Shown here: piece after piece, positions 8,454 through 35,422 of the stretch
How the letters are laid out: each line of letters starts with the position of its first letter
How positions within the stretch are numbered: position 1 is the stretch's first letter
Origin: a virus
IMG/VR virus record: IMGVR_UViG_3300005471_000026
Span: 1 to 44,881 of that record
Direction: 5' to 3' (one strand)
DNA length: 44,881 bases
Position numbers and translations under genes: made by a program
The notes under the pieces: generated by a model
Database searches by the model: none
Told to the model about the DNA's origin: nothing
What the model saw: only the letters and a program-made list of their open reading frames with translations

Positions 8454-8828
8454 CTAGCGCCCGGCACACCGCCAAGGCTCCTCACGGTTGACGCCGTGGC
8501 AGATCCCCCGGAGGAGGATCCCCATCTCGGCGTGTTCGCCTCGGATGGCTCGAGCGTCGGCGGCGATCGCGCCCATGTTGGTTGTCACACCCGAGAGGAT
8601 CGCGTTCGTGAGCCAGAACACGAGGACCCAGGCGGGACCGTATTTGATGGCGACGCCCGCCCACCCGCCCGGCGTGCCGTCCGCGATCTGTCGCATGAAT
8701 GAAAACAACCACCCCCCCGCCGGCCCTCCAGCGGTCGAGCTATTGTCGGATGAGTGTCGTCCGATGTGACCTCGGCGAAGCACTGGATCCCCCTTTTTTC
8801 TGTGCACCTTACGGCGCGTCTGTTTCAT
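8454..8828 (-). CDS. Single-span membrane protein downstream of the giant virion protein
   Basis: One transmembrane helix is clear (AWVLVFWLTNAILSGV, residues 66-81), followed by a soluble tail with two cysteines. The ATG at 8828 overlaps the stop of the giant virion gene (ATGA). Codon use in the first 44 codons (AGA, AAA, CCA, TCA, AAT) is unlike the rest of the genome. Two shorter starts are therefore realistic: GTG at 8783, preceded by AAAGGGGG, or ATG at 8696. It may be a holin, antiholin or spanin-like partner of the next gene, but this is inferred from location and topology only. Confidence 0.55.
   Translation of the reverse strand: MKQTRRKVHRKKGDPVLRRGHIGRHSSDNSSTAGGPAGGWLFSFMRQIADGTPGGWAGVAIKYGPAWVLVFWLTNAILSGVTTNMGAIAADARAIRGEHAEMGILLRGICHGVNREEPWRCAGR
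8697..8824 (-). promoter_or_regulatory. Atypical leader with possible promoter ahead of lysis genes
   Basis: This stretch is lower in CTC and GAG codons and higher in A than the surrounding genes. On the minus strand it contains GTCACA, a 17-base spacer, and GACAAT, each matching four of six sigma-70 consensus bases. It also holds the AAAGGGGG ribosome site. It could be an internal promoter for the membrane-protein genes. Evidence is weak. Confidence 0.3.
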
Positions 8829-14800: not shown

Positions 14801-16516
14801 CGCCTCGAGGCCGGCCTCGGCGAGGGTCGTCCGCTCGAACTTGAGCCCGTAACGCTCGAACGTGGCGATCGGGTCGAGGCCCGCCCGCGCGACTAACCCG
14901 TTCTGAAAGACGGCGTTATACAGCCGCGCGTAGCGTTCGGCTACGTCCGGCTTCACGCCGGCCGCGGTGAGCGCGTTCGTGATCCGGGCCTGCACGGCGC
15001 CCGCCGGCGTCGGTCCCTCGGCCGCGGCCTCCGCCGGCGCCGGCTCCATGGTCCGGGCCTGCTCGAGGAACGCGGCCCGCTCCCGCGCGTTCATCTCGCC
15101 CGGCGCCAGGCGCACGACCTCGGCGAAATAGGCGTTCGCGTCCGTCCCGGCGATCCGGGTCGCGTAGCGCGCCGCCGGCACGGCCAGGTCGGCGCCGGTC
15201 TGGAGCGCCTCGGCGTAGGCGGTCGGGGAGCCCGTGAGCGCCTCCGCGGCCTTGGCCGGGTCGAGCCCTTGCGACTGATAGAACTCGGTCACGTCCTCGA
15301 CCGGGATCAGGAGCTCCCGCGCCGGCGAGTCCTTCGCCATCTCGCCGACGAGCTCCTCGAACTTCTCCGGCGATCGGGTCGCGAGCTTGTTCCCCTTCGT
15401 CGCTGCGGCGAGGTCGTTCGAGAACGTCTTACCGCGATCGCCGGCGACCACGCGATCGAGGCCGCGCGTCGCGCCGGTCTGCACGCCCACGGCGACGACC
15501 GTCGAAACGAACGTGTCCCAGAACGCGCCCGGCCGCGCCTCGAGGTAGTCGGCGAACGGCTTGTCGGGATGCAGGAGCGCCCAAGCGTTGAGATCTTGGA
15601 GCGCGGTCGCGACCTGCTCGCCGGGGATCTCGGTGAGGAGTTGGTGCCCGATCGTCTTGAGGAGCCCGGAGCCCGTCGCCAGGTCGCCGACGATCGCCTC
15701 GAGCGGGAGCTTCTCGGTCGCGACCTCGACGGCGCCCTCGATCGCGGCGTAGCCGAGCGAGGTCCCGACGCCGGCGCCCTCGGCGCGCGCCTCGCTGTAG
15801 GCCGGCCCCGCCGTCTGCACGCCGATGAGGCCGAGCGCGAGCGACGGGTTTTTCGTGATGACGGTCGCGACCATGATCGGCGCCGCGGCGCCGACGCTCT
15901 CGAGCCCGCCGAGGACCGCCTTCCCCGTGCGGCCGACGCCGGCCTGCGTGCCGCGGAACTGCTGCCCGATCGCCTTCGCCTCGGCGCCCTTCTTCTTGCC
16001 CCACGCGGTGAGCTCCGGGATCGCGAACACGTCGCCGGCGGCTTCGGCGACGCCATACGCGCCCATGTTCGCGTGCTCGAAGAATCCGCCGGCGAGCGCG
16101 CCGAACGCATTGCTCCCGAAGTTGAACACGCTCTCGAGGCCGGTGAGTGGCACGAGGTCGTCGTGCACGAGCGCGCCGTGATCGGGATGCGACTCGATCC
16201 AGCCGGCGAGCTTCGGCGCGCGCTTGCGGAACTCGATCGGATCGAAGTCCGCGGCCGACGCCTGTCGCTCGACCTCGTCGAGGTTCCGGCGAATCACGTC
16301 GACCGGGAGGCCCGTCTTGATCTGGAGATTGAACGCGCGCGCCGCGGCGTCGGCGCCCGTCGACGGTGCCCGGCGTAGACCGTCGGTCAGTCGATCGACC
16401 GGCGCCTCCGGGAACGCCGAGAGGCCCGAGCCCCTCGAGGTAATGGTGCCCGGCGAGGCGATCGCGCTCCCCGGCTCTTTCGGCTCGTCGTCAGGGAACG
16501 CGGAGATCTGCGGCAT
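8825..16516 (-). CDS. Giant polyvalent internal virion protein (2563 residues)
   Basis: This is the largest gene. Features in order: an N-terminal region with hydrophobic Gly/Ala helices (about 140-370) that could cross a membrane; a GNAT-like polyvalent-protein segment near 1035-1085 (SYSRLVAFYRRF, then FSTLKAMIRNP); a zinc-metallopeptidase motif NLSTVIHESGHFYLELM with H1255, E1256 and H1259; long coiled-coil regions (about 1500-1950); and a C-terminal membrane-prone part (about 2400-2480, including an acidic DDDDD stretch). It is comparable in position to T7 gp16, which is ejected into the host envelope to form a DNA channel. Such multi-domain proteins probably enter the cell with the DNA and may protect it. 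It follows two smaller core proteins, as in T7-like gene order. Confidence 0.85.
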   Translation of the reverse strand: MPQISAFPDDEPKEPGSAIASPGTITSRGSGLSAFPEAPVDRLTDGLRRAPSTGADAAARAFNLQIKTGLPVDVIRRNLDEVERQASAADFDPIEFRKRAPKLAGWIESHPDHGALVHDDLVPLTGLESVFNFGSNAFGALAGGFFEHANMGAYGVAEAAGDVFAIPELTAWGKKKGAEAKAIGQQFRGTQAGVGRTGKAVLGGLESVGAAAPIMVATVITKNPSLALGLIGVQTAGPAYSEARAEGAGVGTSLGYAAIEGAVEVATEKLPLEAIVGDLATGSGLLKTIGHQLLTEIPGEQVATALQDLNAWALLHPDKPFADYLEARPGAFWDTFVSTVVAVGVQTGATRGLDRVVAGDRGKTFSNDLAAATKGNKLATRSPEKFEELVGEMAKDSPARELLIPVEDVTEFYQSQGLDPAKAAEALTGSPTAYAEALQTGADLAVPAARYATRIAGTDANAYFAEVVRLAPGEMNARERAAFLEQARTMEPAPAEAAAEGPTPAGAVQARITNALTAAGVKPDVAERYARLYNAVFQNGLVARAGLDPIATFERYGLKFERTTLAEAGLEATLAEVAKGRRPAAGQPAASSTAEPGVPRGTADEAGTGSPAGLPPGLEDVEGLADVLAGLGGAELTEAPTGSEAANASGESAASLEALSRGAGMASRGERFVVYDRAGNERPLLGPDAVDYTAKAGETYGVAGPTGFRLLEDRGGKVPAAVSSPRGAQAGARPGDAGGERGRSDADRRPEGASDGGNAQRRRLPTVLELAASDGDKPFEPATAEADAARFTPEHVRELERVAEELEQFGFEGRTWTWLTNEASTGNAAGGHANIVAGGAGSPVLDDILELSPLSKGQGGKGTAKQVRGTRPQIAAAVRKALESRRIKTNLVEGAMRVAERRAADDYREISRPVLPPSWGEEVSSQFTDELSALVDQQIEELGLDAAEIEGVGDPTFDTSELEQRDQVEQQPLTKEELEAFALDVKERLGLEEFDLRLLTTGDIELETIASPGDGRGSRAMRELTAFADRVGRRILLSPADKGYQPGSKKTSSYSRLVAFYRRFDFVRNAGRNKDFSTLKAMIRNPKGPESTLEQRDARQVDLLDTGEEQPRLPGAEDVRDQNIATPTFEAPFALTSPVAKPERGKRAAPAPSPEYTAALEASRLASQAFGNAQRQFRAGEISDAQFLEARTANEAATAAFDEAFAKEEALAAQRGRTTLFASGPLEAQGVIQFGKDRKFTIKLFEKANLSTVIHESGHFYLELMADVANEIARIPATERTEAQQEILGDLAALEAWFEDEDHKPVPGSSFSRKQHEKFARAFEAYVLEGNAPSEELRPAFHKFKQWLTEIYKTLLGLERAAGEPLDLTPEVRQIFDRLLASDAQIAKAREEQVPIFLTAADAGMTESEFALYRRQIEKASVATQEALDQKLMADIRRQRTAAYKAQRDAVESAVVEELNEAPVYKALAAMRYGTKPDGSSVVEGEPAVPIKLSRKMLVEQVGEARTKALPRPFIYSSEGGIDPTLAAEWFVFDSVDKMLNEIEHAAPYPEVVKGETDRRMVTQYGDLLLDGGLADARRASTANEDRETVIRAEVRALQALRRQVGPFARQAATEARTEARAERDYERAWFEAEAKLRIAIAEGYKQVEIDRLTKQVARLKAKTRGAAPAIRRGLPNPALLREAAQAKIGAMTVENIRPRIWFESAKRNGLKAQEAAARQDFNAAIDFKTQELFSLALYREATTVVEELERRVGKARDLAKPAARARLGIAGDTYLDQIDGILDRLEFAKVSAKALARRASVAKFVAALEGQGLPVDLPAEILDDARRVNYKKLTVDELVGVLDGIDQILHLSRLKNRLLKKQAKRELDELAGDLAANIRAKTKTTKRAVARDRRPTDERLRSIDGYFASQVKLSTIVADLDGFEEGGPMWEAVLRLVNDAGNEEALENEKATKALHGLVEGAFPGAEKFKLYEKVEVPAVGRSMSRMERIMVAMNYGNEGNRQRILEGEGWNETQAQAVIDTLAKADLDFVQGVFDYFETFRPAIAAKQKRITGLEPTWVEATPITTRHGEYRGGYFPIKADDRLTASAAAKLDLDAANIAKLAAFTRPTTKRGHLEERKGGTDPVRLDFGTIFEHTTQVIHDLTHHEMLIDVGRILGHRDVQAAIYETKGDQVYKDLKAHLRDIAIGDVPAQDGFEKGLAHARTGATVVGLGWSLTTPLYQPLGLTVSWRQVGGKWVAKGIGRWMRDAASMTSTVSWVHERSTFMRLRHKTMQREINEIRNAIGVETGRFSAAVDQAFQWASFGLADKQAIADSYFFLIGRAQMIADVPTWIGAYEKAMANGKDDATAVALADQAVLDTQGGGQIKDLAPVQKGGAAKKLWTNFYSAFNVFYNQAVRAQRAKNLRNPVEIGRLAADYFLIYIAPATLTYALPELAHSLMGGGDDDDDEGFWAGLVRANLSYVMGSMIGLRELSSAVQGYAGYDGPAGARGFAAAARLVRQTDQFVSSGFDPEKLDAAFWRSLADTAGVWLHFPAGQIRRTLEGTAAYIEGKADPTAIVTGR

Positions 16517-19458: not shown

Positions 19459-21516
19459 TTAGCCTCCTGCGTCGACGTTCGGAATGATCCCGAGCACCGT
19501 GAGCGGCGTCGGGTCGGTGTGTCGGATGAACACGCGCCCGCTTTGCGACCACGTCGTCGAGACGACGGCCTCGACCGCGCCGTCGATCGTGGCCGAGGTA
19601 TCCCAGGCCTCGGCCCGCGTGAGTGAGAGCTTCGAGGCGTTCGGCCCCACGTAGAACCCGCGCGCCGAGTCCTCGACGAGGACCGTCACGTTCGCGACCT
19701 TCTTCCGCTTCGCTCGAATGTCGGTCCCCTGAATGTCGAGGTCGAGCGTCTCGAGGTCCGCCACGATCGGGAGGCCGACCTTCACGTTCTCCGCCGCCGT
19801 GTCGAGCGTGATCTCGCCCGTGACGCCGACCGTAAACGGGCCTTGCGGGAGCCCATCGGCGAGCACGTTCACGGAGCGGCCGATCAGGTGATCGAGCCCG
19901 CCGATGACGGTCGCCGCGGCGCCGTCATACTCGAGGCCCGAGTCGACGAACCAGGCGTCGGCCGCAACCGTCTCGACCTCGCGCGAGACGAGCCGCTCGA
20001 TGTAGCGTTTCGTCGTCCCGTTGATCGTCCGCTTCACGATCACATAGACCGCGTCCTCGTCGTCCTCCGGCACGACGACCACATCCTCGAACAAGTCGCC
20101 GGCGCCGGTGTCGTGCCGATGCCAGGCGATCACTTCCTGCTCGCGGTTGTAGGTGAGCCCGAGGAGCACGCCGTCGCTCCGCACGGCCCAGAGGATCGTA
20201 TCGGGCGTGATCGCGAGCGCCATCCGCTCGACCGTCCGCTTCTTGAACAGGTGCCGCGAGTAGACCGTGAGATCCCGCGAGCCGATCCCGCCCACTTCCT
20301 GATCGAACGAGAGGTCGCGGACGCGCGTCCCGCGCGCCTGCACAAAGAGGACGGTCTGCCCGACGACGACCGGCCGGACGTAGGCGGTCCCGGTGTAACC
20401 CTGCCGATCCGGATTGATGGCCGATGGAATGAGCGCGCCGCCCTCGCCGTCGCCCTGAATCTTCCACTCGCCGCGGCCGGTGAGCACGAGGAGCCGCTTC
20501 AGATCGATCAGGTTCCGCACGTCTTGCGCGCCCCGCGAGGCGAGCCGGAACGTCACGGCGTCATCGTCTTGGAGCGGCGACCGGATCGAAAAGTTGGAAT
20601 GGAACCCGATCCGCGAGGCCCACACCGTCTCCGGGTTGTTGATCGTGTTCGCGAAGCATCGGCGCTGCTGGTAGTAGCCGACCGTCCGCGGGTAGTTGCC
20701 CGCCGTGTCAAAGAGCGCGCGCGCGATCGGCGGCGTGAGCGTGAAGTCCGGGAGAAGCCCCACGTCGTTGAAGTAGGCGAGCGGCGTCGAGCCGATGTAA
20801 CCGTAGACCCCGCCGCCTCCTTGGTAAGGGTCCTTGTAGATCCGGTATTCGACGGCGCCGGCGACCGGCGTCCATGACGTGAGGATCGGGTCGGACGGCG
20901 TCGGCTCACTCACGCCCGAGAGCGTGTTCGGCGAGCTCGCGACGCTCTCCTCGTAGGTGTCCGCCTTCACGGCGGTTACGACATAGGACATCGTGAGCGA
21001 GCCGGCCAGGCCGAACCCGCCGCCGATGCCAGTCGGCGCCGCGATCGATGGCTCCGTCGTGATCACGGTGAGCGTCCAGTTTGTATCCGCCACTCGCCGG
21101 AGCTCGCGCGGCCGGTATAGCTGGTGCGTGATCGTGAGAACGTCGCCGTTCTGCTCGAACTCGAGGTCGGGAATGTCGGCCGTGACGTAAGGCGTCGAGA
21201 TCTCGTAAGCCACGCCCGGCGAGCTCTCGACCTGATCGGCCAGGCGGACGAACCGAAAGTAGGTATCGCCGACCTCGATCACGTAGGCGAGCGCGTCCGA
21301 AAAGACGACCGGGAGGAGGTAGGTCCGCGCGCTCGAGGTTTTGACCTCGACGACGAACCGCGTCCCCGAACGGTTCGCGGCGCCGCCATGCTCCTGCACG
21401 ACGAAATTCCGCACCGTCCGCGCGCCGGCGGCGTAGCGCGCCAGGTCGGCGCGAGCGCCCAGAGCCGGCGCGAGCTCGCCGGCCGAGAACGCCCGTTGCA
21501 AGATGTTCGAGCCCAC
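19459..21516 (-). CDS. Tail tube / tail stabilisation protein (nozzle-like)
   Basis: The 685-residue protein begins NILQRAFSAGELAPALGARADLARYAAGARTVRNF. It continues with GGAANRSGTRFVVE, then LEFEQNGDVLTITH, the pattern of podovirus tail proteins found beneath the portal in BPP-1-like phages. The rest is beta-rich with repeated short strands, consistent with a propeller or tube. It probably forms the short tail tube. A GTG at 21516 preceded by AAGGGGG is taken as start; earlier in-frame codons overlap the neighbouring gene. Confidence 0.75.
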   Translation of the reverse strand: MGSNILQRAFSAGELAPALGARADLARYAAGARTVRNFVVQEHGGAANRSGTRFVVEVKTSSARTYLLPVVFSDALAYVIEVGDTYFRFVRLADQVESSPGVAYEISTPYVTADIPDLEFEQNGDVLTITHQLYRPRELRRVADTNWTLTVITTEPSIAAPTGIGGGFGLAGSLTMSYVVTAVKADTYEESVASSPNTLSGVSEPTPSDPILTSWTPVAGAVEYRIYKDPYQGGGGVYGYIGSTPLAYFNDVGLLPDFTLTPPIARALFDTAGNYPRTVGYYQQRRCFANTINNPETVWASRIGFHSNFSIRSPLQDDDAVTFRLASRGAQDVRNLIDLKRLLVLTGRGEWKIQGDGEGGALIPSAINPDRQGYTGTAYVRPVVVGQTVLFVQARGTRVRDLSFDQEVGGIGSRDLTVYSRHLFKKRTVERMALAITPDTILWAVRSDGVLLGLTYNREQEVIAWHRHDTGAGDLFEDVVVVPEDDEDAVYVIVKRTINGTTKRYIERLVSREVETVAADAWFVDSGLEYDGAAATVIGGLDHLIGRSVNVLADGLPQGPFTVGVTGEITLDTAAENVKVGLPIVADLETLDLDIQGTDIRAKRKKVANVTVLVEDSARGFYVGPNASKLSLTRAEAWDTSATIDGAVEAVVSTTWSQSGRVFIRHTDPTPLTVLGIIPNVDAGG

Positions 21517-21530
21517 GTCGCCCCCTTCGC

Positions 21531-22214
21531 TTACGTCATCTGAGCCGGGAACGCCTCGATCGGCACTTCCGACCAATCGATATTGAAGCGATAGACGACG
21601 ACGCCCGTCGCGCCCTGCGTGAGCCCGAGCCGGATCCGGAGGCCCTCCTGCGAGTCGAGCACGATCGGATGTTCGCCCGGCGCGATCTCGTAGAGGGTCG
21701 CGCGGCCCGACATGCCGAGCGTATTCGTGAGCCCGTCGAACGCAACCGAGGCCATCGGATTCGCGTCCTCGACGCTCGAGGCGCCGGCCGTGACGGCGGT
21801 CGCGCTCGCGACGCGCATGTTCGCGAGCGCCGGCGTCATGCCGATCCCCGGCGCCTTGCGGTTCGTGAGGCCAAACGCGATCGCCGTGCCGCCGGCGTCG
21901 GCCGTGATGAAATTCGTCACGCGGACCAGATCGACGGAGAGCTCCTGCGCGGTGCCGAACGCGGTCCGAATCGACGCGAACGCCTCGATCTTATGAATGA
22001 GCGCGCGGAACGTGACATTCGACCAGCGGATCGACGCGAGCGCGTCGCCCGTGTTGAGGACCGTCGTCAAGCCCGTAACGAGCGCGGTCCGGTAGTGCCC
22101 GCCGACCAGGCCCGCCGATCGATACTCGAGCGGCCGAAGCGTCGTCCTGAGCGCGTGGTGTGTCCGATCGACCTCCGCTTGTATGCGGGTATCGCCGGGA
22201 TTTTCGATGATCAT
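21531..22214 (-). CDS. Tail-associated structural protein (beta-rich)
   Basis: The 227-residue protein has the pattern ALRTTLRPLEYRSAGLVGGHYRTALVTGL, SIRWSNVTFRALIHKIEAFASIRTAFGTAQEL and LDSQEGLRIRLGL. I associate this with a family of phage virion proteins that lie near tail genes. It is beta-rich with no signal peptide. A role in the tail tip or as a decoration protein is inferred from its position between two tail genes. Confidence 0.55.
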   Translation of the reverse strand: MIIENPGDTRIQAEVDRTHHALRTTLRPLEYRSAGLVGGHYRTALVTGLTTVLNTGDALASIRWSNVTFRALIHKIEAFASIRTAFGTAQELSVDLVRVTNFITADAGGTAIAFGLTNRKAPGIGMTPALANMRVASATAVTAGASSVEDANPMASVAFDGLTNTLGMSGRATLYEIAPGEHPIVLDSQEGLRIRLGLTQGATGVVVYRFNIDWSEVPIEAFPAQMT

Positions 22215-22217
22215 GCT

Positions 22218-22649
22218 CTAGCCTCCGATGACGTAGTGAACCGAGACACGGCCCGCGAGGCTCTCCGTCGCGGCCCACCTTACCCGCATCCGCCGGCGGT
22301 CGAGGACCTCGGCGACGGCCGACACGATGACGCCCTCGGCCTCGTCCCGCGGCGGGAGGATCTGCATCAACACGGGCGCCCCGACCTGCGCGTCGGTGAA
22401 CGTCGCCTCGAGGTAGGCGGTCCCGCCGCGGCGACGATCCCCTCCGAGCTCGAGCTCCGCGCGCACGAGCGCGATCGGCGTGCCGCCGGCGGCGAACGTC
22501 GCCTCGAGCGTGCTTGTGACCTGTAGGCCCGCCGAGAGCCGGAGGAGCCAGTCGGCGATCCAGCCGCGCCACGGCGGCGTGATCTTCCGACCGGCATCGA
22601 CAACCGGCGACGGGTAGGGCGGATCCGGGAGCGTGACCTCGATCGCCAT
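22218..22649 (-). CDS. Hypothetical tail-module protein, 143 residues
   Basis: The protein starts MAIEVTLPDPPYPSP, then GWIADWLLRLSAGLQV and a beta-rich C-terminal half. I do not recognise a family. It starts one base before the stop of the fibre/adaptor fusion gene and is followed by the tail-associated gene three bases on, so it is part of the tail operon. It may be a small tail accessory or fibre-attachment protein. Confidence 0.55.
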   Translation of the reverse strand: MAIEVTLPDPPYPSPVVDAGRKITPPWRGWIADWLLRLSAGLQVTSTLEATFAAGGTPIALVRAELELGGDRRRGGTAYLEATFTDAQVGAPVLMQILPPRDEAEGVIVSAVAEVLDRRRMRVRWAATESLAGRVSVHYVIGG

Positions 22650-25600
22650 CTAGCGCCCGAGGAGCCAGTCGGGATCGCCCGGCGGCTGCTGCTGCTGCTC
22701 GTTCTGGACCGTCGTCGACGCGGTGTTTTTCTCGATGATGTAGCCGCGCTCCATCCGCGCGATCGTCTTTTCGTCGCGCGAGAGGCCGGTCGCCAGGTCG
22801 AACGCCAGGCGGAACGCGAACGCGCTCACGAACTTCTGATCGCCCCCGGCCTTCGCGCCACACGCCGGCCGAACCGTGTATTCGATCTCGATGAACGGCT
22901 CGTCGTTCGAGTCGAATTGCACGCCGTCGTCGGTCACATAGACGAGCGGCCCCACGTCGTCGACGACCATCCGGAACGCCGGCGGCTTCGCGTCGTGCTT
23001 GCGCCCGAGCTCCGGCCGGATGATCCGGCGGACGAACAGACAGCCGGCCGGCGCCCGGAACCCGTAGACCCAATCGGCATTAGTCGGATCGCTGATCGAG
23101 CCGTCGACGAGGACGAGCGAGGCGTAGCGCGTCGCATGCGCCCACGGGAAATCCCGGAGGACGAACCGGAGCGTGTGCTCGAAGAACTGCGCGGCGAGGC
23201 TGCGCTCCTGCGAGGTCGGCGTGAGGAGGTCGCTCGCCGCGGTGAGCATGTCGGTGATCCCGAGGCGCGCGAACGCCAGGTTCACGGCCCGGAGCGTGAA
23301 CGGCACACAGAGCGCGTCCGCGAGGTCGTCGGCCAGGTCCGGCCCGTCGTCGAACGAGTCGACCTCGTCGGGCACAGTCGGATTCTCGAGCTCGTCGAGC
23401 TCGTCCTGCGTGTAGCCGTCCGGCCACTGCCCGCCCGGCGCCGGGATCGGGTCGGTGATGTATTCCCCGTTCGTGCCCCATCCGCCATTTCCCGCGGTCG
23501 CGTCCGCGGCCATGATGACGAGGAGCGAGAACGAGACACCGCTCGCGTTGAGCGTCGATCCCACCGTGACGGAGTCCACCCCGCCGGCGGTAAAGCCCGT
23601 GTTGATCGTCGAGCTCCCGGCGCTCGCGAGGCTCGAGGTAATGCCGGTGTGCGAGGGATCGCGCACGTGCCCGGATACCGTCGTCCCTTGGCAGTAGGCC
23701 CAGAGCGGACGCTTTCCGGAGACGCGCGGGAGCGCGATCGTTCTCGAGGCCGCGCCGTCGCCGACGTAGCTCATGATCTGGACGACGATCGGCTCCGTGA
23801 GCTCGAACCCCGCGTAGTCGGCGCCGTCGCGCTGCCGCCAGAGGTTGTAAGTCGTCTGCGCGACCGCGCCGGACGGATGGAGCGTCGTCATCGATCGGAG
23901 AATGCCCGTCAGGAACCGGGCGAACGTGGTCCCCTCGCTCCCGCCCATCTGCTGCCCGCCGTTCACGTCGTTCCCCGGCCCCTTAAAGAACATGAACCCG
24001 CCGCCCGATGGGAACTCGGTCGCGAAGAATGCGAGCTCCGCGAGGAAGTCCGGATCGGTGAGCACGTTGTCGAACGTCGTCGTTCCGGAAAGATGCTTGA
24101 ACGCGCCGTTCAGCATGAACCGCATCCCCGGATCGCCGACCGCGATGTATTGGTAGGTCCCGCCCGTCGCGTTCTCGGCCGTCGCCGGCCCGCCGATCTT
24201 GTTGATCGATCGCGTCTCCGGATCGCTCGCGCCGCCGACGCCGACGAACTCCGGATCCTCCATGAAATTCGCGCCGCTCCGGAGGTCGCCGGCGACCGCC
24301 CAATGCGGCGCCGACATCGACGACCACCAGCGGACCGCGCCGACCGCCGTGTCGGTTTTCCGGACCCACCAGAAGTGAGCCGGGATCTTCGCGACGATGT
24401 CCTGCCCGAGATTGTTCCCGGTGTAGGTCCCGGCCTTCACCCACACGGGCGAGTCAGGCGGGACGGCGGTCCGGTTCCACGGCGTCCGCGGATAGGGCGC
24501 GTTGTGGATGCCGAATTGAATCGGCTCCGCCGATTCCGGCTGCTCCTCGTCCTCGTCCTGCGGCCACTGATCGCACTTGTCCCAGACGCCCACGAGCGCG
24601 ACGTGCGCCGTCAGGCGTGTAACCGTCGTGAGGTTCGCGTCCGCGGCCTTCGTGAACCGGAGGAGGAGCGAATGGATCCCCCACGGCGAGGCCTCGTTCG
24701 TCGGCGCGTATAGGACCGTGTCCCAGGCGTCGGTAGTCTGCCCGACGACTGTCGTCATCGGCGTGGTCCCGGCGTCGGCCGAGGTCCGCTTGAGCGTGAA
24801 CCCGAGTTGACCGTCGCCGGCGGTCGCGCGGCGCCACGCGATCGCGACCGTGATCGCCTGCGCGCCGAGCGCGCCATCCTGCCGCGCGATCAGGTCGGCG
24901 CGTGTCGTGGCCGCGAGGAGCGCGCCGGACGTGGAGCTCGTGAGAATGTCCTCCGGCTGCGCGGTGTGCTGCGAGAGCCCGCGAATGTCGCCCGTCCAAT
25001 TCGCCGAGTGGGTCGCGTCCGGCCCCATCGGATTGATCTCCTCGACGTGGTGCCCGTGCGTCCAGTCCGGCCCGGCGTAGACGACCGTCGCCGCATTGTT
25101 CGGCGACGACGTGATCGGCCCGACCCACACATCCGCGCCGCCGGCGCCGCCGTGCGTCGCGTGCTGGCTCGCCGGCAGGATGAACCCGAGCCAGTCGTCG
25201 AGGTCATACTCCCAATCGTTCGGGCCGACCGATCCCTGCGCGCATCCGAGAAACGAGTTGTCGAGCGTGCGATAGGTCGGCGGGTCGACCTTCGTCTCTG
25301 TCTGCCCGGTGAACGTCGACGTGAGGACGTGATCGATATACAGCTTGCCGCTGATATTGATCCCCTCGGAGCTTGGCTCCGTGCCGGTGTCCGATCCGTG
25401 GTTGTCGTAAACCACATCGATCAGATACCAGCGATCGAGCTCGAGCGCGTCGGTGAGCCCGAGGTTCGCGCCGGTGAGCGAACCGCCGCTCGTGACCATG
25501 CGGAAGTAGAGCGCGCCGCTCGAGTTGAGCGCCATCACGAGCCCGCTATTCGTGAGCCCGATGTTCGATCCGCACTTCATCTGCCAGACGCCGCAATCGC

Positions 25601-26198
25601 CGGTCCCGCGCGTGCGGAGGCGCAAGTAGAACCGCTCCCACCCGTGGCCGGTCGGCGTCGCGCCGAAGAACGTCCACGAGTGTTGGACCGTGAGCGAGGC
25701 GCCGCGGCAGGCCATCCCGCGCCCGCCCGGCACGCGCGAGGCGTTGCGGCTGAGCGGGTCCGTGTTGCTCGACTCGCCGTTCGGCCCGTTGTTGCTGCCG
25801 ACGCCCCAATTCTCGAACCCGTCCGCCCATGCAACCTGTCGCATTACGCCGGCGGTCTGCCCCGCGGCCGGCGCCTGCGTGATCGGCGCCGCGTAGACGA
25901 ACCGCCCGACCCAGGCGTATTTACGCGAGCTCCCGAACAGGTGCCCCCAGAACGAATCGTTCAGCGTGAAGAACGCGCGATCGAGCGGGAACTTCCCGGC
26001 GGCGAGCGGCGGATACCAGGCGGTCCGCGTGCACGGGTAGGTGAGCGGGTCGCCGTCCTGCTGGAAAGGGGCGGAGAACTCGGTCGCCGCGGGGAGCGGC
26101 CCTCGAGAGACGCCGTTCGGATACTGCGCTTGGAGCGCGGCGACCGTCGCCTGATCGGTGAGGTAGATGTAGAAAGTTAGCTGCGTCGTGTTCGCCAT
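22650..26198 (-). CDS. Tail fibre-like protein fused to a head-tail adaptor domain
   Basis: The 1182-residue protein has at least two parts. Residues about 1-930 are beta-rich and fibre-like. They include a probable concanavalin A-like (LamG-type) segment near 125-350 that ends in DLDDWLGFIL, and Gly/Ser/Thr-rich domains up to about 900. An acidic linker (DELDELENP to DDLADALC) follows. Residues 964-1182 look like the podovirus adaptor that sits below the portal: NLAFARLGITDMLTAASDL, SLAAQFFEHTLRFVLRDFPWAHATR, DWVYGFRAPAGCLFVRRI, and a C-terminal alpha region. These parts are normally separate genes. No stop or start region separates them here. GGGGGG lies upstream of the ATG. Confidence 0.75.
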   Translation of the reverse strand: MANTTQLTFYIYLTDQATVAALQAQYPNGVSRGPLPAATEFSAPFQQDGDPLTYPCTRTAWYPPLAAGKFPLDRAFFTLNDSFWGHLFGSSRKYAWVGRFVYAAPITQAPAAGQTAGVMRQVAWADGFENWGVGSNNGPNGESSNTDPLSRNASRVPGGRGMACRGASLTVQHSWTFFGATPTGHGWERFYLRLRTRGTGDCGVWQMKCGSNIGLTNSGLVMALNSSGALYFRMVTSGGSLTGANLGLTDALELDRWYLIDVVYDNHGSDTGTEPSSEGINISGKLYIDHVLTSTFTGQTETKVDPPTYRTLDNSFLGCAQGSVGPNDWEYDLDDWLGFILPASQHATHGGAGGADVWVGPITSSPNNAATVVYAGPDWTHGHHVEEINPMGPDATHSANWTGDIRGLSQHTAQPEDILTSSTSGALLAATTRADLIARQDGALGAQAITVAIAWRRATAGDGQLGFTLKRTSADAGTTPMTTVVGQTTDAWDTVLYAPTNEASPWGIHSLLLRFTKAADANLTTVTRLTAHVALVGVWDKCDQWPQDEDEEQPESAEPIQFGIHNAPYPRTPWNRTAVPPDSPVWVKAGTYTGNNLGQDIVAKIPAHFWWVRKTDTAVGAVRWWSSMSAPHWAVAGDLRSGANFMEDPEFVGVGGASDPETRSINKIGGPATAENATGGTYQYIAVGDPGMRFMLNGAFKHLSGTTTFDNVLTDPDFLAELAFFATEFPSGGGFMFFKGPGNDVNGGQQMGGSEGTTFARFLTGILRSMTTLHPSGAVAQTTYNLWRQRDGADYAGFELTEPIVVQIMSYVGDGAASRTIALPRVSGKRPLWAYCQGTTVSGHVRDPSHTGITSSLASAGSSTINTGFTAGGVDSVTVGSTLNASGVSFSLLVIMAADATAGNGGWGTNGEYITDPIPAPGGQWPDGYTQDELDELENPTVPDEVDSFDDGPDLADDLADALCVPFTLRAVNLAFARLGITDMLTAASDLLTPTSQERSLAAQFFEHTLRFVLRDFPWAHATRYASLVLVDGSISDPTNADWVYGFRAPAGCLFVRRIIRPELGRKHDAKPPAFRMVVDDVGPLVYVTDDGVQFDSNDEPFIEIEYTVRPACGAKAGGDQKFVSAFAFRLAFDLATGLSRDEKTIARMERGYIIEKNTASTTVQNEQQQQPPGDPDWLLGR

Positions 26199-26795: not shown

Positions 26796-27254
26796 CTAGT
26801 CGATGACGTAGCCCTTCGCGTAGGCCTTCGCGAGGACCTGCACGAACGAGAGCGGCGCGATCCAGGCCGACACGGTGATCGTGTCGTCGGTGCCGAGCTC
26901 GTAGCGTGCGCCGATATACCGCTTGGTCGGTGTGCCAGGCGGGATCGGAATGATGACGATCGCGCCGGCCGTGAGGCTCGCGCCGGCGACGCGCCGTTTG
27001 ACGACCTCGTCATGCGACGAGAGGTTCGCGTTCACGCTCTGCACGAAAATGAAATCGAACGTGTTCGTGAAGCTCGCCGGCGTGCCGTCTCCGGCCGCGG
27101 CAGTGTCGACGGAGATGATGAGCGCCATCGGCTCCCCGTCTCCGATCTGCCGGACCGGCGTCGTCGCGCCGAGGTCGATCGTGTTCGTCGAGTAGGCGTC
27201 GGCCGACGTTACGGCCTGCGCGTCCGACAGTTGAAGCAAGGCATCGAGAACCAT
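26796..27254 (-). CDS. Capsid cement/decoration protein, Bbp16-like
   Basis: The 152-residue protein starts MVLDALLQLSDAQAVTS, then STNTIDLGATTP and a beta-rich body with PMALIISVDT and IIPIPPG. This is the pattern of Bbp16 of Bordetella phage BPP-1, the jelly-roll cementing protein that staples the capsid. It lies immediately after the major capsid gene, as in BPP-1. It probably binds at capsid symmetry axes on the outside of the shell. Confidence 0.8.
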   Translation of the reverse strand: MVLDALLQLSDAQAVTSADAYSTNTIDLGATTPVRQIGDGEPMALIISVDTAAAGDGTPASFTNTFDFIFVQSVNANLSSHDEVVKRRVAGASLTAGAIVIIPIPPGTPTKRYIGARYELGTDDTITVSAWIAPLSFVQVLAKAYAKGYVID

Positions 27255-27293: not shown

Positions 27294-28424
27294 TTACGCG
27301 ACCACGCTCTCCGTGTTGAGGATGGCGTCCACGGTGCGGACCGGGACCTCCGAGAAGAACATCACGCGGCGCCCGCCGACGTTCTCGAACGTGAGGCCTC
27401 CGCCCGCGCTCACATCCTCGCGGACCTGCCGGCGGAGATGCCGGCGGATCGTCCGGTTCATGTAGAAAACCGGCTTCCCGAGGCGGTTCGGCAGGAGCTC
27501 GATCGCGTGCTCCATGAGGTCGATCAGGTCCGCGCGGGCCGACGTGCCGGAGAGCTCCGAAACGTCGATGTTCGGGATCCGGACCACATAGCGCCAGTCC
27601 TTCACCGCGATCCCGCCCTTCCACTGATACCGCTCCTGAAACGCGCGCATGCGCGAGCCAGCGACGCCGGCGGTTACTTCGACCGTGACCTCGCCGTAAT
27701 CGTTGTGCTGAATGCCCGCCTTCGATCCCTTCGGGAAGATCCCGCACACCGTCTCCTCGCCCCAGGCCACGAGCCAGATCGAGGTAAGGTCGGTGTGACC
27801 GTCGTCGCCCCCGCCGAGAATGATGTTGTCGGCGCTCTCGGCCGTGAGGTCCGAATAGCGCACGGCAAGCCCGGTGAACTCCTCCGGCGCGAGGCCGGCG
27901 TTCCCGTAGATGATCGTCGACTGCATTTCCTGATTCATCGCCTCGAGGAACGCCTTCGCCTCGGAGAGACGGAAGCTCGAGACGTTGCCGTTCAGGAGCG
28001 CGAGGTCGACATCGACCTCCGACCAGGCCTCGAGCATCCCCGTCGCCTCGTCGATCTGCGCGGTCGTGCTCTTGGACGGCGTCACGCCGGCGTTCAGCAA
28101 ACGCCAGAACACGGACGGGAGCCCGGTCCGGACCGTGGTCCGGTGGCCGGTCGGGAGGTTGCCCTCCTTCCACAACATATCGGCGAGCATCTCGTTTGTT
28201 TGCTCGAGGAGCTCGACGATGTCGGGGATCTTGCCGTCCGGGTCGACGCGCTTCGCCCAATCGAGGAGCGTGAGCGCGCCCGTGCTCAGCGTGAGGCCCA
28301 TCATCGGCGCGTCGGGCGCCGCATGCGGCAGGAAGAACTCGAACGCCTTCCCGATCAGGACGGCGACGAGCGTAACGAACGCGACAGCCCCCCACGAGAG
28401 CCGGCGCTTTGGATCGGTGAACAT
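27294..28424 (-). CDS. Major capsid protein with hydrophobic N-terminal extension
   Basis: Residues 42-376 match the BPP-1/epsilon15-type major capsid protein: LTLLDWAKRVDPDGKI, NLPTGHRTTVRTGLP, TIIYGNAGLAPEEFTGLAVRYS, SIWLVAWGEE, IFPKGSKAG and VKDWRYVVRIPNID. This protein builds the HK97-fold icosahedral shell. The first 40 residues are extra: MFTDPKRRLSWGAVAFVTLVAVLIGKAFEFFLPHAAP includes a hydrophobic helix (about 12-31). The start at 28424 has a good AGGAG seven bases upstream. No ribosome site precedes the in-frame ATG-ATG at residues 41-42, where the standard protein would begin. Codon use is uniform across the join. Confidence 0.85.
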   Translation of the reverse strand: MFTDPKRRLSWGAVAFVTLVAVLIGKAFEFFLPHAAPDAPMMGLTLSTGALTLLDWAKRVDPDGKIPDIVELLEQTNEMLADMLWKEGNLPTGHRTTVRTGLPSVFWRLLNAGVTPSKSTTAQIDEATGMLEAWSEVDVDLALLNGNVSSFRLSEAKAFLEAMNQEMQSTIIYGNAGLAPEEFTGLAVRYSDLTAESADNIILGGGDDGHTDLTSIWLVAWGEETVCGIFPKGSKAGIQHNDYGEVTVEVTAGVAGSRMRAFQERYQWKGGIAVKDWRYVVRIPNIDVSELSGTSARADLIDLMEHAIELLPNRLGKPVFYMNRTIRRHLRRQVREDVSAGGGLTFENVGGRRVMFFSEVPVRTVDAILNTESVVA

Positions 28425-28441: not shown

Positions 28442-29206
28442 CTACGTCCGGCCGTCCGCCGCTTTGCTCGTCGGGTGGTCATACATCTTGGTCGCGGTAT
28501 CGACCGCCCCCGAGCGCGCGCCGGCGCCTTGCACGTGCCCGTCCTCGTCCATCAGTTTTCCGGCGTCGGCCAGTAGAGCGACGACCTCCGGGTGATTGAG
28601 AGCTCCGCCTCGGTTCAAGAACTTGAGGAACGAATCGCGCCGCGCGTGTCCGACCGGACGCATCCGGTCGACGAACGCATTCGCGAGCCGCTGACTCTCG
28701 GCGAGCTTCTCCCCGCCGTAGTCCGGATCTGCCTTCAACGCGGCGAGGTAGGCGTCGCTCTGCGCTTTCAGCGTGACGCCCATCTCGTCGAGGTAGGCCT
28801 GCGCCTCCTCTTGGCTCATGTCGTTCTCGCGGGCGATCTTCTCGAGCGCCGGGAGATCCGTCGTATCCATGAGCCCGCCGGCCGGGAGCTTGAGCTCATA
28901 CTTCGCGGGAGCCTTTGCGGCGCCTGCCGCGGCTCCGGCGTCGCCGGCCCCTGCTTCCTTGCCTTTGCCCTCTCCGGCGGCGTTCCCGTCGCCCCCGGCC
29001 TTGCCCTTGTCGCCTGCGCCCTCGGCTCCTGCCGCGGCGCCGGCGCCGTCTCCTGCCGCTGCTGCTCCGGCCGCGGCTGCTGCCGCGCCATCCCCGGCGC
29101 CGGCGGCGCCCGCCGCTGGAGCCGCTCCGCCCTCGTTGCCCGTTCCGCCTGCCGCGGCTGCGCCGTTTGCGGGTGCTGCGGCGCCTGCTGCTGCTGCTTT
29201 TGCCAT
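28442..29206 (-). CDS. Capsid scaffolding-type protein
   Basis: The first 100 residues are a low-complexity Ala/Gly/Glu/Asp/Lys stretch. The second part is helical, with KYELKLPAGGLMDTTDLPALEKIARENDMSQEEAQAYLDEMG and a C-terminal pattern (LNRGGALNHPEVVALLADAGKLMDEDG). This matches phage scaffolding proteins upstream of the capsid gene in BPP-1-like phages. It probably fills the procapsid and is removed during maturation. No protease motif is visible, so it is scaffold rather than a fused protease. Confidence 0.7.
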   Translation of the reverse strand: MAKAAAAGAAAPANGAAAAGGTGNEGGAAPAAGAAGAGDGAAAAAAGAAAAGDGAGAAAGAEGAGDKGKAGGDGNAAGEGKGKEAGAGDAGAAAGAAKAPAKYELKLPAGGLMDTTDLPALEKIARENDMSQEEAQAYLDEMGVTLKAQSDAYLAALKADPDYGGEKLAESQRLANAFVDRMRPVGHARRDSFLKFLNRGGALNHPEVVALLADAGKLMDEDGHVQGAGARSGAVDTATKMYDHPTSKAADGRT

Positions 29207-31029: not shown

Positions 31030-32775
31030 CTACGCGGCGGCGGCGCCGGCCGCGGCCGATGCGATCGCATCGAGCGCGCTCGTCCCGTCCGCGAGCTTCG
31101 CGCCGCTCGCATCCTTCGCGGCCTTGGCCTCGAGCGCGTTCTGCTGCGCCTGTTGTGCCTGCGCCGCGGCCTGCTGCTGCTCCGCCGCGCGGGCGCGCGC
31201 CGTCTCGGTCGGCACGATGATCCGCGGGTCGATCCCGGTCATGTCGCCATAGTTGTCGACGACCTGCGCCCAATCGACCTTTTGCACGATCTCGCTCGAG
31301 ACTTGCGCCTGCACGAGCGGGAGGAGCGAACCGATAAATCGATCCTGCCCGACCAGGCCGACAAGCTTCTGCGCCTGCGCCATGATCGAGAGGTATTCGA
31401 CCTTGAGCTCGACGCCGTCGAGCTCGTCGGGCGGCTCCGGTATGAGCTTCGCGTCCTGCATGAACATGAACGCGCGATCGATCATCGGCTCGAGGAGCTC
31501 GTCGTTCGTCCGCTCGAGGACCGGCCCGAGCGCGATGAGCTTCTCCTCCTTCCGCTCCGCGATCTCGGTCGCGGTGATCCCGGCCTTCACGTCGGAGCGC
31601 GCCAGCATGAGGAACAGGTCCTCGTAATAGGCCCGCTGGATCCGGAATTGAACCTCCTGCATGTCGCGGAGGAGATGCTCGAGATTGAGGTTCGTCTCGT
31701 GAATCGGCGCGAGCCCCTGCTGCCCCTCGCGCACGTCGACGTAAGTCACATCGCCGGCGACAAGGGAAGTCTTGGACGCCTTGAGCGACGCCGGCCCGCG
31801 GAGCGGCGGGTCGACCATCTTCGCGATCCCCTGCCCCTTCCTGCGCTCCTCGATCTGAAGCTGCCGCACGTCGCCGAGCGCCGTCATCCCCGGCGAGTCG
31901 GTGCCGTAGGTGTCCTCCGCCGTCACGTCCCACCGTGGCGCGAAAACCGGGAACGTCTTGAACCCGCTCTCACGCAAGAACCGATAGCCGGCGTCCTCGC
32001 CGAACTCCCACCAGCACGAACGCCAGGGGAGCGCGTCCTTCGCCTCGAGGCGATCGCGCCGCGGCTCCTCGTTCGGCGTGACGCACCAGACCACTTTGAC
32101 CGCGGCCTCGTAGTCGCCCTGATCCCAGAGCGTCCGGAGCGTCGGCGAGGCCTTCGACCAATCGATCAGGCGCGTTCCCGGCACGCGCAAGAACTCGCGG
32201 ACGATCTGCCGCACCGTGAGCTCGTATTCCCGGATGAACGTCGCCGCGTTGCCGCGCTCGTCCTGCCCGAGGTAGTAGGAGCCGATCGGGTATTGGTAGG
32301 TCCGAAAGAGATCTTTCGAGTCCGGGAGCATCGACATCGCCGCGGTGCCGAAGTCGCCGGCGTCGCCATAGATCACGGGGAGCGTGTTGTAGACGTTCGT
32401 CGTCAGAAAGACGGAGATCATCCGCTGCGTGACGATGTGCAGCCACTCCTTCACCGGGCCGAATTTCGAGAGGTCCGGGTCCGGCGTCCCGAGCTTGAAC
32501 CACGGACGCGCCGGCGAGGTCAGGCCCGCATGGAGGCCCGACGCGAGCGTGCGGCTCGAGAACTTCGCCGTCGAGTTGATGATGTTCTGATTCCGCTTGT
32601 CGCCTTTGTTGCGGTCCGTGGTCGTGAACCGCGAGCGCCGCGGGCGGATCCAGTCGGAGAGCTCTTTCCAGTGTGAATCGAAGGAGCTCCGCTCGCTCTT
32701 GAGTCTCGAGAGGAGGCGCTCGTATTGGTAGCGCCGCGGGCGCGCGGAGTCGATCGACGAGTAGCGATCCGGCAT
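31030..32775 (-). CDS. Portal / head-to-tail connector protein
   Basis: This 581-residue protein carries the family pattern of podovirus head-tail connectors: YERLLSRLKSERSSFDSHWKELSDWIRPRRSRF, then RNQNIINSTAKFSSRTLASGLHAGLTSPARPWF, FGTAAMSMLPD, and MQEVQFRIQRAYYEDLFLMLARSD. Twelve copies form the ring through which DNA is packaged and ejected. The C-terminal 60 residues are Ala/Gln-rich. Start and stop codons touch those of its neighbours. It lies in the usual position, three genes after the large terminase. Confidence 0.9.
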   Translation of the reverse strand: MPDRYSSIDSARPRRYQYERLLSRLKSERSSFDSHWKELSDWIRPRRSRFTTTDRNKGDKRNQNIINSTAKFSSRTLASGLHAGLTSPARPWFKLGTPDPDLSKFGPVKEWLHIVTQRMISVFLTTNVYNTLPVIYGDAGDFGTAAMSMLPDSKDLFRTYQYPIGSYYLGQDERGNAATFIREYELTVRQIVREFLRVPGTRLIDWSKASPTLRTLWDQGDYEAAVKVVWCVTPNEEPRRDRLEAKDALPWRSCWWEFGEDAGYRFLRESGFKTFPVFAPRWDVTAEDTYGTDSPGMTALGDVRQLQIEERRKGQGIAKMVDPPLRGPASLKASKTSLVAGDVTYVDVREGQQGLAPIHETNLNLEHLLRDMQEVQFRIQRAYYEDLFLMLARSDVKAGITATEIAERKEEKLIALGPVLERTNDELLEPMIDRAFMFMQDAKLIPEPPDELDGVELKVEYLSIMAQAQKLVGLVGQDRFIGSLLPLVQAQVSSEIVQKVDWAQVVDNYGDMTGIDPRIIVPTETARARAAEQQQAAAQAQQAQQNALEAKAAKDASGAKLADGTSALDAIASAAAGAAAA

Positions 32776-33656: not shown

Positions 33657-35207
33657 TTAAATCCGGTTCGGGTCGAAGTCGCGGAGCGCGCGGAGCGTCT
33701 CCTCGGTTTCCTCGCGCCGGCGCTCGTCGTCGGCGTAGGGGTCGAAGTCGTGATCGGCACGGCCGACACGGCGCCCGCCGGTCGACAGGAGCTCATACAT
33801 CCGGCCGGGCATCTCCGGGTAGGCGTAAGTCTGCATGTAGGCGTCGGCCAGGTCGGGCGAGATCCCGATCCGCTCCTTGAGTTGCGCCTTCTCCTCGAGG
33901 ATGAATTGCCCGTTCACGAACGAGTAGGTGATCTCCGTGAGCTCCGGGACCATCTCCGGCAGGAACGGGAGCGCGGCGCCGTTCCGGATCGCCGTCGAGC
34001 CCTTGACGTAGAACTCCGCGCGCCGGTTCTTGAACCGCGGGTCGAGCGCCTTCCCCGCGTAGTTGATCCCCACGGCGGCGAAGTTGGCCGTCGTGAGGTT
34101 GTCGATCACGCCGTGGCCCCAATGCCCCGTATCGTCGACGAGCGTCAATTCCGCGCCCCATCGGTTCGAGGCCATCATCACGCGCGCCGCGATGTCCGTC
34201 GTCTTGGCCTGCCGGAGGATGACCGGGCGGAACGAGGCGAGCCCCTGCCGCGGGAAGATCACGGTCCGGTCGTCGCCGAACCGCGCCACGTCGACGCCGA
34301 GCCGCTTCTGCTGATGTTGATACACGTCGGCCGGGAGCCGGCGCTGCATCGCGAGCTCGACCTCCTCGACGCCGAGGAGCGCATTGATCGACGCCGGCGG
34401 GAACTCGCCGAGGATGTTCACCTTCACCCACGGGTTATCCCGCCCGTATTGCTTGATCTGCTCGCGCGCATGGTCCGCCGGCGTCGGCCGACCGCCGATC
34501 GATTTGTTGACGCGCGGCGAGTGAACCCAGGCCTTCGGATTGTCAGGGTCGCCGGTGATCGTCGTGACGTGCCAGAGATGGCGGTCGACCGTGCACGCGC
34601 GATAGAGCGGCCCGGTCGTGTGCGTCGGGTTGCCGGCGCCGACGACCTTCGTCTCGATCCCGGAGAGGAGCACGGCCTCCGCCGTGACCATGATCGATTG
34701 TGGGTAGCCCCCGATCTCGTCGAGGAGCCACATCGCGTAATCCTCATGGAGGCCGGCCATCGCGTGAGCCTGCTCCTCGGCGCTCGCCTTCTTCGGCCAG
34801 GTGCGCGCGCGCGCCCACCACGTCGCCGGGTATTGCCGGTGCAGGATCGCCGTCTTAGTCCAGAGGAACGTATTCCGGAAGAACTCGCTCCGGTTCATCC
34901 ACTTGGCGAACTCCGGCCAAAGGCCATTGTCCAAGTTGGCGCCGGTGATCGACGTGGCGTTGATGCGCGGATGCGGGCGCGTCGCGAGGAAGTTCAGCCC
35001 GAGCCAGGCGAGGACGGTCGTTTTCCCCGGCCCCTTGCACGCCTTCATGATCTGGCGCGCGTTGTGCGGGAACGCCTCGAGGACCTCGATCTGCCACGGG
35101 TCCGGCTCCGTCCCGAACTCCTCGCGGACCATGAGGACCGGATGCTCGCGCCAGCGGCGAAGCTTCTCCCAGATCCGCCGGGCCTCGGCCCGCTGTGCGT
35201 TGGTCAC
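33657..35207 (-). CDS. terL: Terminase large subunit
   Basis: The 516-residue motor protein has the ATPase domain first: DPWQ near 36-39, the P-loop KACKGPGKTT at 55-64, and Walker B WLLDE at 160-164. The RNase H-like nuclease domain follows: GVDVARFGDD with Asp306, LTLVDDTGHWG with Asp358, and ISPDLADAYMQTY near Asp452. This complete set indicates a working packaging motor that cuts DNA and pumps it through the portal. A GTG at 35207 overlaps the stop of the gene upstream (GTGA); the arginine-rich frame upstream of it is a shadow. It shows neither pac nor cos specificity by itself. Confidence 0.92.
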   Translation of the reverse strand: MTNAQRAEARRIWEKLRRWREHPVLMVREEFGTEPDPWQIEVLEAFPHNARQIMKACKGPGKTTVLAWLGLNFLATRPHPRINATSITGANLDNGLWPEFAKWMNRSEFFRNTFLWTKTAILHRQYPATWWARARTWPKKASAEEQAHAMAGLHEDYAMWLLDEIGGYPQSIMVTAEAVLLSGIETKVVGAGNPTHTTGPLYRACTVDRHLWHVTTITGDPDNPKAWVHSPRVNKSIGGRPTPADHAREQIKQYGRDNPWVKVNILGEFPPASINALLGVEEVELAMQRRLPADVYQHQQKRLGVDVARFGDDRTVIFPRQGLASFRPVILRQAKTTDIAARVMMASNRWGAELTLVDDTGHWGHGVIDNLTTANFAAVGINYAGKALDPRFKNRRAEFYVKGSTAIRNGAALPFLPEMVPELTEITYSFVNGQFILEEKAQLKERIGISPDLADAYMQTYAYPEMPGRMYELLSTGGRRVGRADHDFDPYADDERRREETEETLRALRDFDPNRI

Positions 35208-35422
35208 TGGAGCCCGTGACGCTCTACGAGCTCGCGACCGTCGAGCGCGTTGTGCGTGACGAGGAGGACGCCGAGGGTTGGGAGGAACTCGGTCCGCGGC
35301 CGACACCAGCACGATCGGCTCTCGACGTGCTCGCGGAGGTCCTCGACCGGGAGGACGTGGCGGTTCCCGTCTCGAGCTCCGGCGAGGACGAGCTCCCACC
35401 GCTCGCGACCGTCGTCACACAC
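35204..35422 (-). CDS. Small conserved phage protein with HVLP-DL-H pattern
   Basis: The protein reads ERWELVLAGARDGNRHVLPVEDLREH, then CWCRPRTEF, and ends LVTHNALDGRELVERHG. I recognise this HVLP..DL..H / CxC / DGRE pattern from small proteins of many phages; their function is unknown. A GTG at 35422 is the best start. The upstream frame (SDVEAVGTADAAPAPAV) also looks coding, so the protein may instead be the C-terminal part of the zinc-ribbon reading at 35224-35694 joined by a -1 frameshift. Confidence 0.6.
   Translation of the reverse strand: MCDDGRERWELVLAGARDGNRHVLPVEDLREHVESRSCWCRPRTEFLPTLGVLLVTHNALDGRELVERHGLQ

Follow-up and report, generated by a model that had tools for sequence, protein, structure and literature searches.

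A tail adaptor encoded in one frame with a lectin-like N-terminal arm in uncultivated short-tailed phages

Introduction

The tail adaptors of the short-tailed phages T7 and SU10 are dodecameric, each subunit combining a helical bundle with a fibre dock, and adjacent subunits adopt alternating conformations so as to match the six-fold nozzle (PMC6702177, PMC9509320). T7 gp11, KP32 TTPA, SU10 gp11 and the Carin1 connector gp37 are stand-alone proteins of ~200 aa, the fibres or spikes to which they bind being encoded by other genes, and how the contact made by a fibre reaches the adaptor, portal and nozzle for DNA release is an open question in phages of this kind. Here we describe a gene (22650..26198, minus strand) in the virus record IMGVR_UViG_3300005471_000026, the whole of which, 44,881 bases, was analysed and is referred to below as the window. 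Its 1182-aa product comprises an N-terminal arm of lectin-like fold, an acidic linker and a C-terminal tail adaptor domain, and the same arrangement is kept in ~57 non-redundant contigs including the window itself. We consider it likely that a single polypeptide here provides, with its C-terminal 219 residues, the ring under the portal and, with its N-terminal ~915 residues, a lectin-like receptor-binding arm held on a flexible acidic linker.

Results

The fused frame and its distribution

A single open frame running from 26198 to 22650 on the minus strand encodes the 1182 aa without interruption, beginning at an ATG with GGGGGA just 5' of it; the third-position GC lies between 0.84 and 0.95 throughout and shows no step at the junction of arm and adaptor. 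An earlier interpretation of this DNA, made without database searches (the sequence-only reading), had described one uninterrupted frame of uniform codon use, and this description holds. The same join is found in another contig, L003 (55% identity over 1033 aligned columns), and in L009, which comes from a different metagenome and carries an intact fusion of 1184 aa, while a scan with the third module of the arm gave 25 loci, in most of which arm and adaptor share one frame.

An adaptor scan yielded 163 relatives, 80 of which were kept. With repeated contigs then removed and the window included, the frames comprised an arm with one adaptor (n=52), an arm with two adaptors (n=20) and another N-terminal module with an adaptor (n=3), or 39, 18 and three, respectively, when collapsed at >95% adaptor identity. 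The fusion that the sequence-only reading had inferred for the window thus recurs across many metagenomes, in ~57 viral contigs once redundancy is removed; these contigs were reached via patterns taken from fused members, so that the counts do not estimate the frequency of fusion among all adaptors. Among bacterial genomes the adaptor scan gave only four distant relatives, all with stand-alone adaptors. Judged from these sequences, the fused arrangement appears to be common in a large clade of uncultivated short-tailed phages.

That an assembly chimera or a missed frameshift has merged two adjacent genes might be suggested by family contigs that are frameshifted within this gene (L011, L042, L050, L052 and L089), most likely through sequencing errors. 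This explanation is refuted, however, by the same uninterrupted join, with conserved join residues, in tens of contigs that are independent and come from various metagenomes, and we give it practically no weight: given this conservation of the junction, the frame is real and is neither a mis-assembly nor a missed stop. In L011 (L011:9900-13540) the frameshifts lie both inside the arm and where it meets the adaptor; they are probably sequencing errors, with a real split at this border possible.

The C-terminal adaptor domain

By sequence similarity and modelled fold, residues 964-1182 (22653..23309) are a podovirus tail adaptor of the T7 gp11 type (phrog_394), as the sequence-only reading had proposed with a boundary that is right to within one residue (C964, V965). 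Residues 992-1182 match phrog_394 (tail protein; PHROGs, E=4.8e-14), and tblastn with the window protein finds Pseudomonas phage genes for tail tubular protein A, at ~26% identity. A profile of 17 family members searched against PDB gives a nearly full-length match to the Carin1 connector (8ck1_E, E=1.6e-15), as well as a match to the LME-1 adaptor (9efk, E=0.004). The model of residues 952-1182, built with 45 relatives, has a mean pLDDT of 91.9 and a pTM of 0.85, and its top fold match in PDB is again Carin1 (E=6.5e-12, TM 0.69/0.77), with further matches to LME-1, KP32 TTPA, Kp9, PhiM1, SU10, E1004 and T7 gp11; phage adaptor or tail chains account for all 28 of the 28 best PDB matches. The resemblance to gp11-type adaptors on which the earlier interpretation relied therefore extends to the modelled structure.

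Within this model, a beta domain (72-158) is enclosed by helices 14-27, 46-65, 170-188 and 192-216, an order of helices, fibre-dock-like beta domain and helices that fits the layout of bundle and dock described for T7 gp11 and SU10 (PMC6702177, PMC9509320); the dock-like domain is therefore retained in the model despite the fused arm. The adaptor opens with C964 (23307-23309), which, like C1113 (22860-22862), is invariant in 14 aligned fused adaptors. The two may form a disulfide or metal pair, one that differs from the bundle disulfide of T7 gp11. Elsewhere in the family, L027:4065-4832 has an insertion like a chitin-binding CBM5/12 motif within the adaptor domain, at a loop of the dock domain, and an insert in the arm of L043 carries a similar motif; the adaptor domains of L085, L088, L098 and L106 are also longer.

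An adaptor-profile search of the whole window gave adaptor matches in the fusion frame only, and in the contigs of 20 relatives (44-48 kb) the matches were confined to one frame each, so that a second, free adaptor gene was found neither in the window nor in the 20 long contigs. The neck ring would therefore be built from the fused product, with every adaptor subunit carrying an arm, unless that product is cleaved or, in the window phage, internally initiated.

The linker and the junction

The acidic linker that the sequence-only reading placed between the two halves corresponds to residues 916-963 (23310..23453) and is predicted to be disordered, with pLDDT <50 over 921-934 and 936-961. The linkers of relatives are long and mostly composed of Pro, Gly and acidic residues. 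Cleavage of the linker during maturation, which would leave separate adaptor and fibre in the virion and reduce the fusion to a means of securing 1:1 expression or delivery, is suggested both by this long, acidic and disordered character and by the protease-like gene (phrog_458) of the head module. However, the linker sequence, although strongly conserved between the window and its close relatives, has no obvious motif shared across the wider family, and we regard cleavage as improbable. The phrog_458 proteases, moreover, presumably act on head precursors.

A further route to unequal amounts of the two parts would be internal initiation, by which the gene would yield the full fusion plus a free adaptor, from GTG965 or another internal start, and arms would be present on only some subunits of the ring. 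Codon 965 (GTG, 23304..23306), a candidate relic start, lines up exactly with Met1 in stand-alone adaptors; a mixed ring would relieve the crowding of 12 arms; and synonymous divergence from L003 and L009 is lower in the linker than in the arm (pS 0.23-0.26 versus 0.36-0.51, for only 48 linker codons). Against this, codon 965 is GTC in L009, L021 and L029 have no in-frame ATG, GTG or TTG from 45 codons before to 35 codons after the boundary, no Shine-Dalgarno motif lies ahead of GTG965, and GTG is a common Val codon in this genome of 69% GC. As a family-wide feature, a start codon conserved inside the frame at the boundary of the adaptor is thus rejected and an internal start specific to the window phage is possible, but overall we find internal initiation highly improbable. 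Recombination where two modules meet, or an element that overlaps the linker (23310-23453), could also account for its lower pS.

The N-terminal arm

The model of the full-length protein (pLDDT 71.3, pTM 0.61) is almost wholly beta in its N-terminal part. A Foldseek search of PDB with the whole model lists, below the Carin1 connector, lectin domains of the concanavalin-A type from sialidases, an alginate lyase and a laminarinase, and in a viral library it gives phage proteins of the LamG and DUF7483 types, together with stand-alone tail tubular proteins; where the arm matches clostridial binding domains in PDB, this appears to reflect the common lectin fold. From the secondary structure of the model and the lengths of the matches, the concanavalin-A/LamG-like sandwich is placed at residues 116-345 (25164..25853), behind a conserved N-terminal region (residues 1-105, 25884..26198) that is 77-79% identical to L009 and L003. 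A second beta-rich module (residues 376-545, 24564..25073) is followed by a third (residues 566-915, 23454..24503), which on the same grounds possibly has a DUF7483-type fold. The LamG-type part that the sequence-only reading saw in the first 930 residues is thus recovered in the modelled fold, but the designation of this region as a fibre is an inference, and the window protein matches no Pfam family at E<=10, including the T7 gp17-type N-terminal fibre domain. Weak Pfam matches (Laminin_G_3 and CBM_5_12, E ~0.005-0.007) occur for the arm in single or few members of the family. No arm homologue was found in cultured phages by tblastn with the window protein, of which the adaptor part alone was matched, nor by tblastn with the L017 arm or blastn with the L011 arm.

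The modules differ greatly in their rates of change. Relative to L003, identity is 79% in the N-terminal region, 39-46% in residues 116-545, 67% in the well-conserved third module, 79% in the linker and 88-89% in the adaptor, and residues 116-345, the fastest-evolving module, are 39-43% identical to close relatives; the lectin modules, the second among them, diverge much faster than the linker or the adaptor. That rapid change is restricted to the lectin-like part is as would be expected of a receptor-binding module, without proving binding. The carbohydrate-binding type of fold, the high variability and the replacement of modules and presence of inserts in relatives are all traits of receptor-binding proteins, and no further large protein of the structural module was recognised as a candidate fibre or spike; fold, variability and this lack of another candidate are what suggest a receptor-binding role.

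Modules of the concanavalin-A and Ig types are common as non-essential decorations. The N-terminal region could accordingly be a structural collar, a head-spike-like part or a generic glycan-adhesion part rather than a receptor-binding protein that determines host range, and in Carin1 a head spike base protein is encoded among the genes at this place. We judge this unlikely, since the arm is attached to the tail adaptor rather than to a capsid protein, the lectin modules are its most variable part and the rival fibre or spike that it would call for was not recognised.

Several points weigh against a receptor-binding arm carried by every subunit of the ring. Linker cleavage, internal initiation or partial incorporation may each intervene; the moderate quality of the whole-chain model leaves the shape and oligomeric state of the arm uncertain; and concanavalin-A-like folds occur in structural and enzymatic proteins too. 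In addition, another receptor-binding protein may exist, given the two unassigned genes that follow the fusion (22218-22649 and 21531-22214), the first of which encodes 143 aa in the window and is longer at the same place in relatives, with 397 aa in L002 (L002:629-1822) and 498 aa in L009 (L009:13557-15053). This gene and its longer counterparts are a possible second, variable tail protein.

Tandem adaptors and exchange of modules

In 18 relatives (L017, L018, L026, L080, L082, L087, L091, L100/L104, L102, L105, L108-L113, L115 and L116) the arm is followed by two adaptor domains in tandem, which occupy the C-terminal ~450 aa, the first lacking the C-terminal tail. In the adaptor tree, the fused adaptors together with L076 and L084 form one supported group (98/96), within which the first domains of the tandem forms are one group (100/98) and the second domains another (100/99); the tandem therefore derives from one duplication followed by divergence. 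L103:4368-5636 has two adaptor domains in one frame with no arm, and its place in the tree points to a duplication separate from that of the fused clade.

The same adaptor is also found on unrelated adhesin-like N-terminal modules, namely a putative Ig module in L084:3693-5657 and, in L093:4083-5666 and L107:3912-5669, an F5/8-type C discoidin-like module or other domain together with RVSQxxxEVL repeats. Because L093 and L107 are nested, beside L063, in the arm-bearing group of the tree, the N-terminal module has been replaced there on a retained adaptor. To judge from these sequences, such exchange is what would be expected of host-range parts. Conversely, in a sister lineage (L030, L033-L035, L037 and L038) an unfused homologue of the arm, and specifically of its third module, is a separate gene of ~950-980 aa after a nozzle-like gene; L030 has a separate SU10-type adaptor-like gene upstream (Pfam SU10_adaptor, with an E of 2.7e-4 that falls short of the curated cut-off). 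Its separate existence in this lineage and the module swaps together mark the arm as a portable module.

Genome context

The window holds a podovirus structural module with all genes in one direction. It includes the terminase large subunit (33657-35399), the portal (31030..32775, minus strand; PF12236, E=1.5e-145), the protease/scaffold-like gene (28442-29206), the major capsid protein (27294..28424, minus strand; phrog_212, E=7e-86) and a phrog_427 protein (26796-27254), which a 159-aa protein separates from the fusion. Two small proteins lie between the fusion and the tail nozzle, or tail tubular protein B (19459..21576, minus strand; phrog_376, E=5e-187), which matches the Carin1 'tail nozzle'; an internal virion protein, lysozyme-type proteins and a 2563-aa protein follow. 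The last (8825-16516) matches phrog_9880, of unknown function, over its C-terminal 950 residues and is probably an internal virion protein. The order of major capsid protein, small genes, adaptor and nozzle is the same as in cultured relatives.

Discussion

If the ring formed by the window protein is dodecameric, by analogy with T7 and SU10, up to 12 arms would surround the neck, and a contact with the receptor could be relayed straight to the adaptor, portal and nozzle. With the recogniser and the neck ring in a single chain, there is no interface between fibre and adaptor, and the stoichiometry is fixed. Among the tandem relatives, the ring could be filled by six chains with first and second domains alternating, giving six arms that match the six-fold nozzle. 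We see the chances as even that, throughout this uncultivated clade, each neck-ring subunit bears a receptor-binding arm, covalently linked and anchored by its C-terminus (12 arms, or six in the tandem subclade), so that host recognition and the portal gate form a single mechanical unit, and that the arm is recombined onto a constant adaptor. The combination of an unchanging adaptor and exchangeable N-terminal modules suggests a natural site of attachment through which these phages change their surface-binding parts.

Compared with T7 gp11, KP32 TTPA, SU10 gp11 and the Carin1 connector, the fused adaptor has the same fold across the whole domain, helical bundle and fibre-dock-like beta part alike, and the same gene position between the capsid and nozzle genes, but the arm is in-chain. 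The nearest cultured sequence relatives, epsilon15 gp11 and the adaptors of the Pseudomonas phages Ab31, Shamal and HU1, of Purivirus and of Nostoc phage JY18 (~25-35% identity, same synteny), have no N-terminal extension of note, unlike the window protein. A separate ~200-aa adaptor in the same gene order is found in Ab31, Shamal, UFJF_PfDIW6, JY18, Carin1, epsilon15, HU1 and a Klebsiella prophage-type record, and in Vibrio 1.021 and Caulobacter SR18, found via the nozzle, an adaptor-sized gene lies just upstream of it. The polarity of attachment would also be reversed: the T7 gp17-type fibre docks on the adaptor and nozzle by its N-terminal domain, and Peru-2 spikes likewise dock via their N-termini (PMC13320782), whereas the arm described here is joined by its C-terminus, in a sense opposite to gp17, P22-type and Peru-2 spikes.

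The joining of an adaptor to an adhesin is not itself categorically new. The sequence-only reading had adaptors and fibres only as separate genes in related phages, a view to be softened in the light of p14 of Vibrio phage VP2 (phrog_9239, 'tail tubular protein', 741 aa), in which, as in the window protein, an adaptor is covalently joined to adhesin-like domains. The order is opposite, however, with the adaptor at the N-terminus (1-189) and Ig-like and glycine-rich domains at the C-terminus, and the arm is unrelated. VP2p14 (NC_005879; L121:9329-11554) makes a cultured Vibrio phage available for the study of adaptor-adhesin fusions. For phage OVC8, an Ig-bearing tail-protein homologue has been noted (PMC4802629), and in the passages concerned the adaptor is not recognised. 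The literature searched, outside which most subscription journals lie, contained no paper describing an adaptor-fibre fusion, nor any account of an adaptor at the C-terminal end of such a chain, of the lectin-like arm, of the tandem form or of how widely the arrangement is spread.

Two adaptors per genome, as in the tandem relatives such as L017, L018 and L026, are known from PhiGT1 and Bcep22-like phages, whose dual tubeA genes encode two adaptor paralogues (PMC10386132). Those paralogues are adjacent separate genes of very divergent lineages, whereas the tandem relatives have two domains in one chain, duplicated within the fused group, and the window protein differs from both in its single adaptor domain. 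The tandem forms thereby bear on the question, raised for PhiGT1, of whether two paralogues share one ring: one ring would be predicted for them, as against the two-ring alternative discussed for the dual tubeA phages (PMC10386132). In the best-studied phages the adaptor and the host-binding part are made separately; in the clade described here they are made as one chain, of which the arm is probably the host-binding part.

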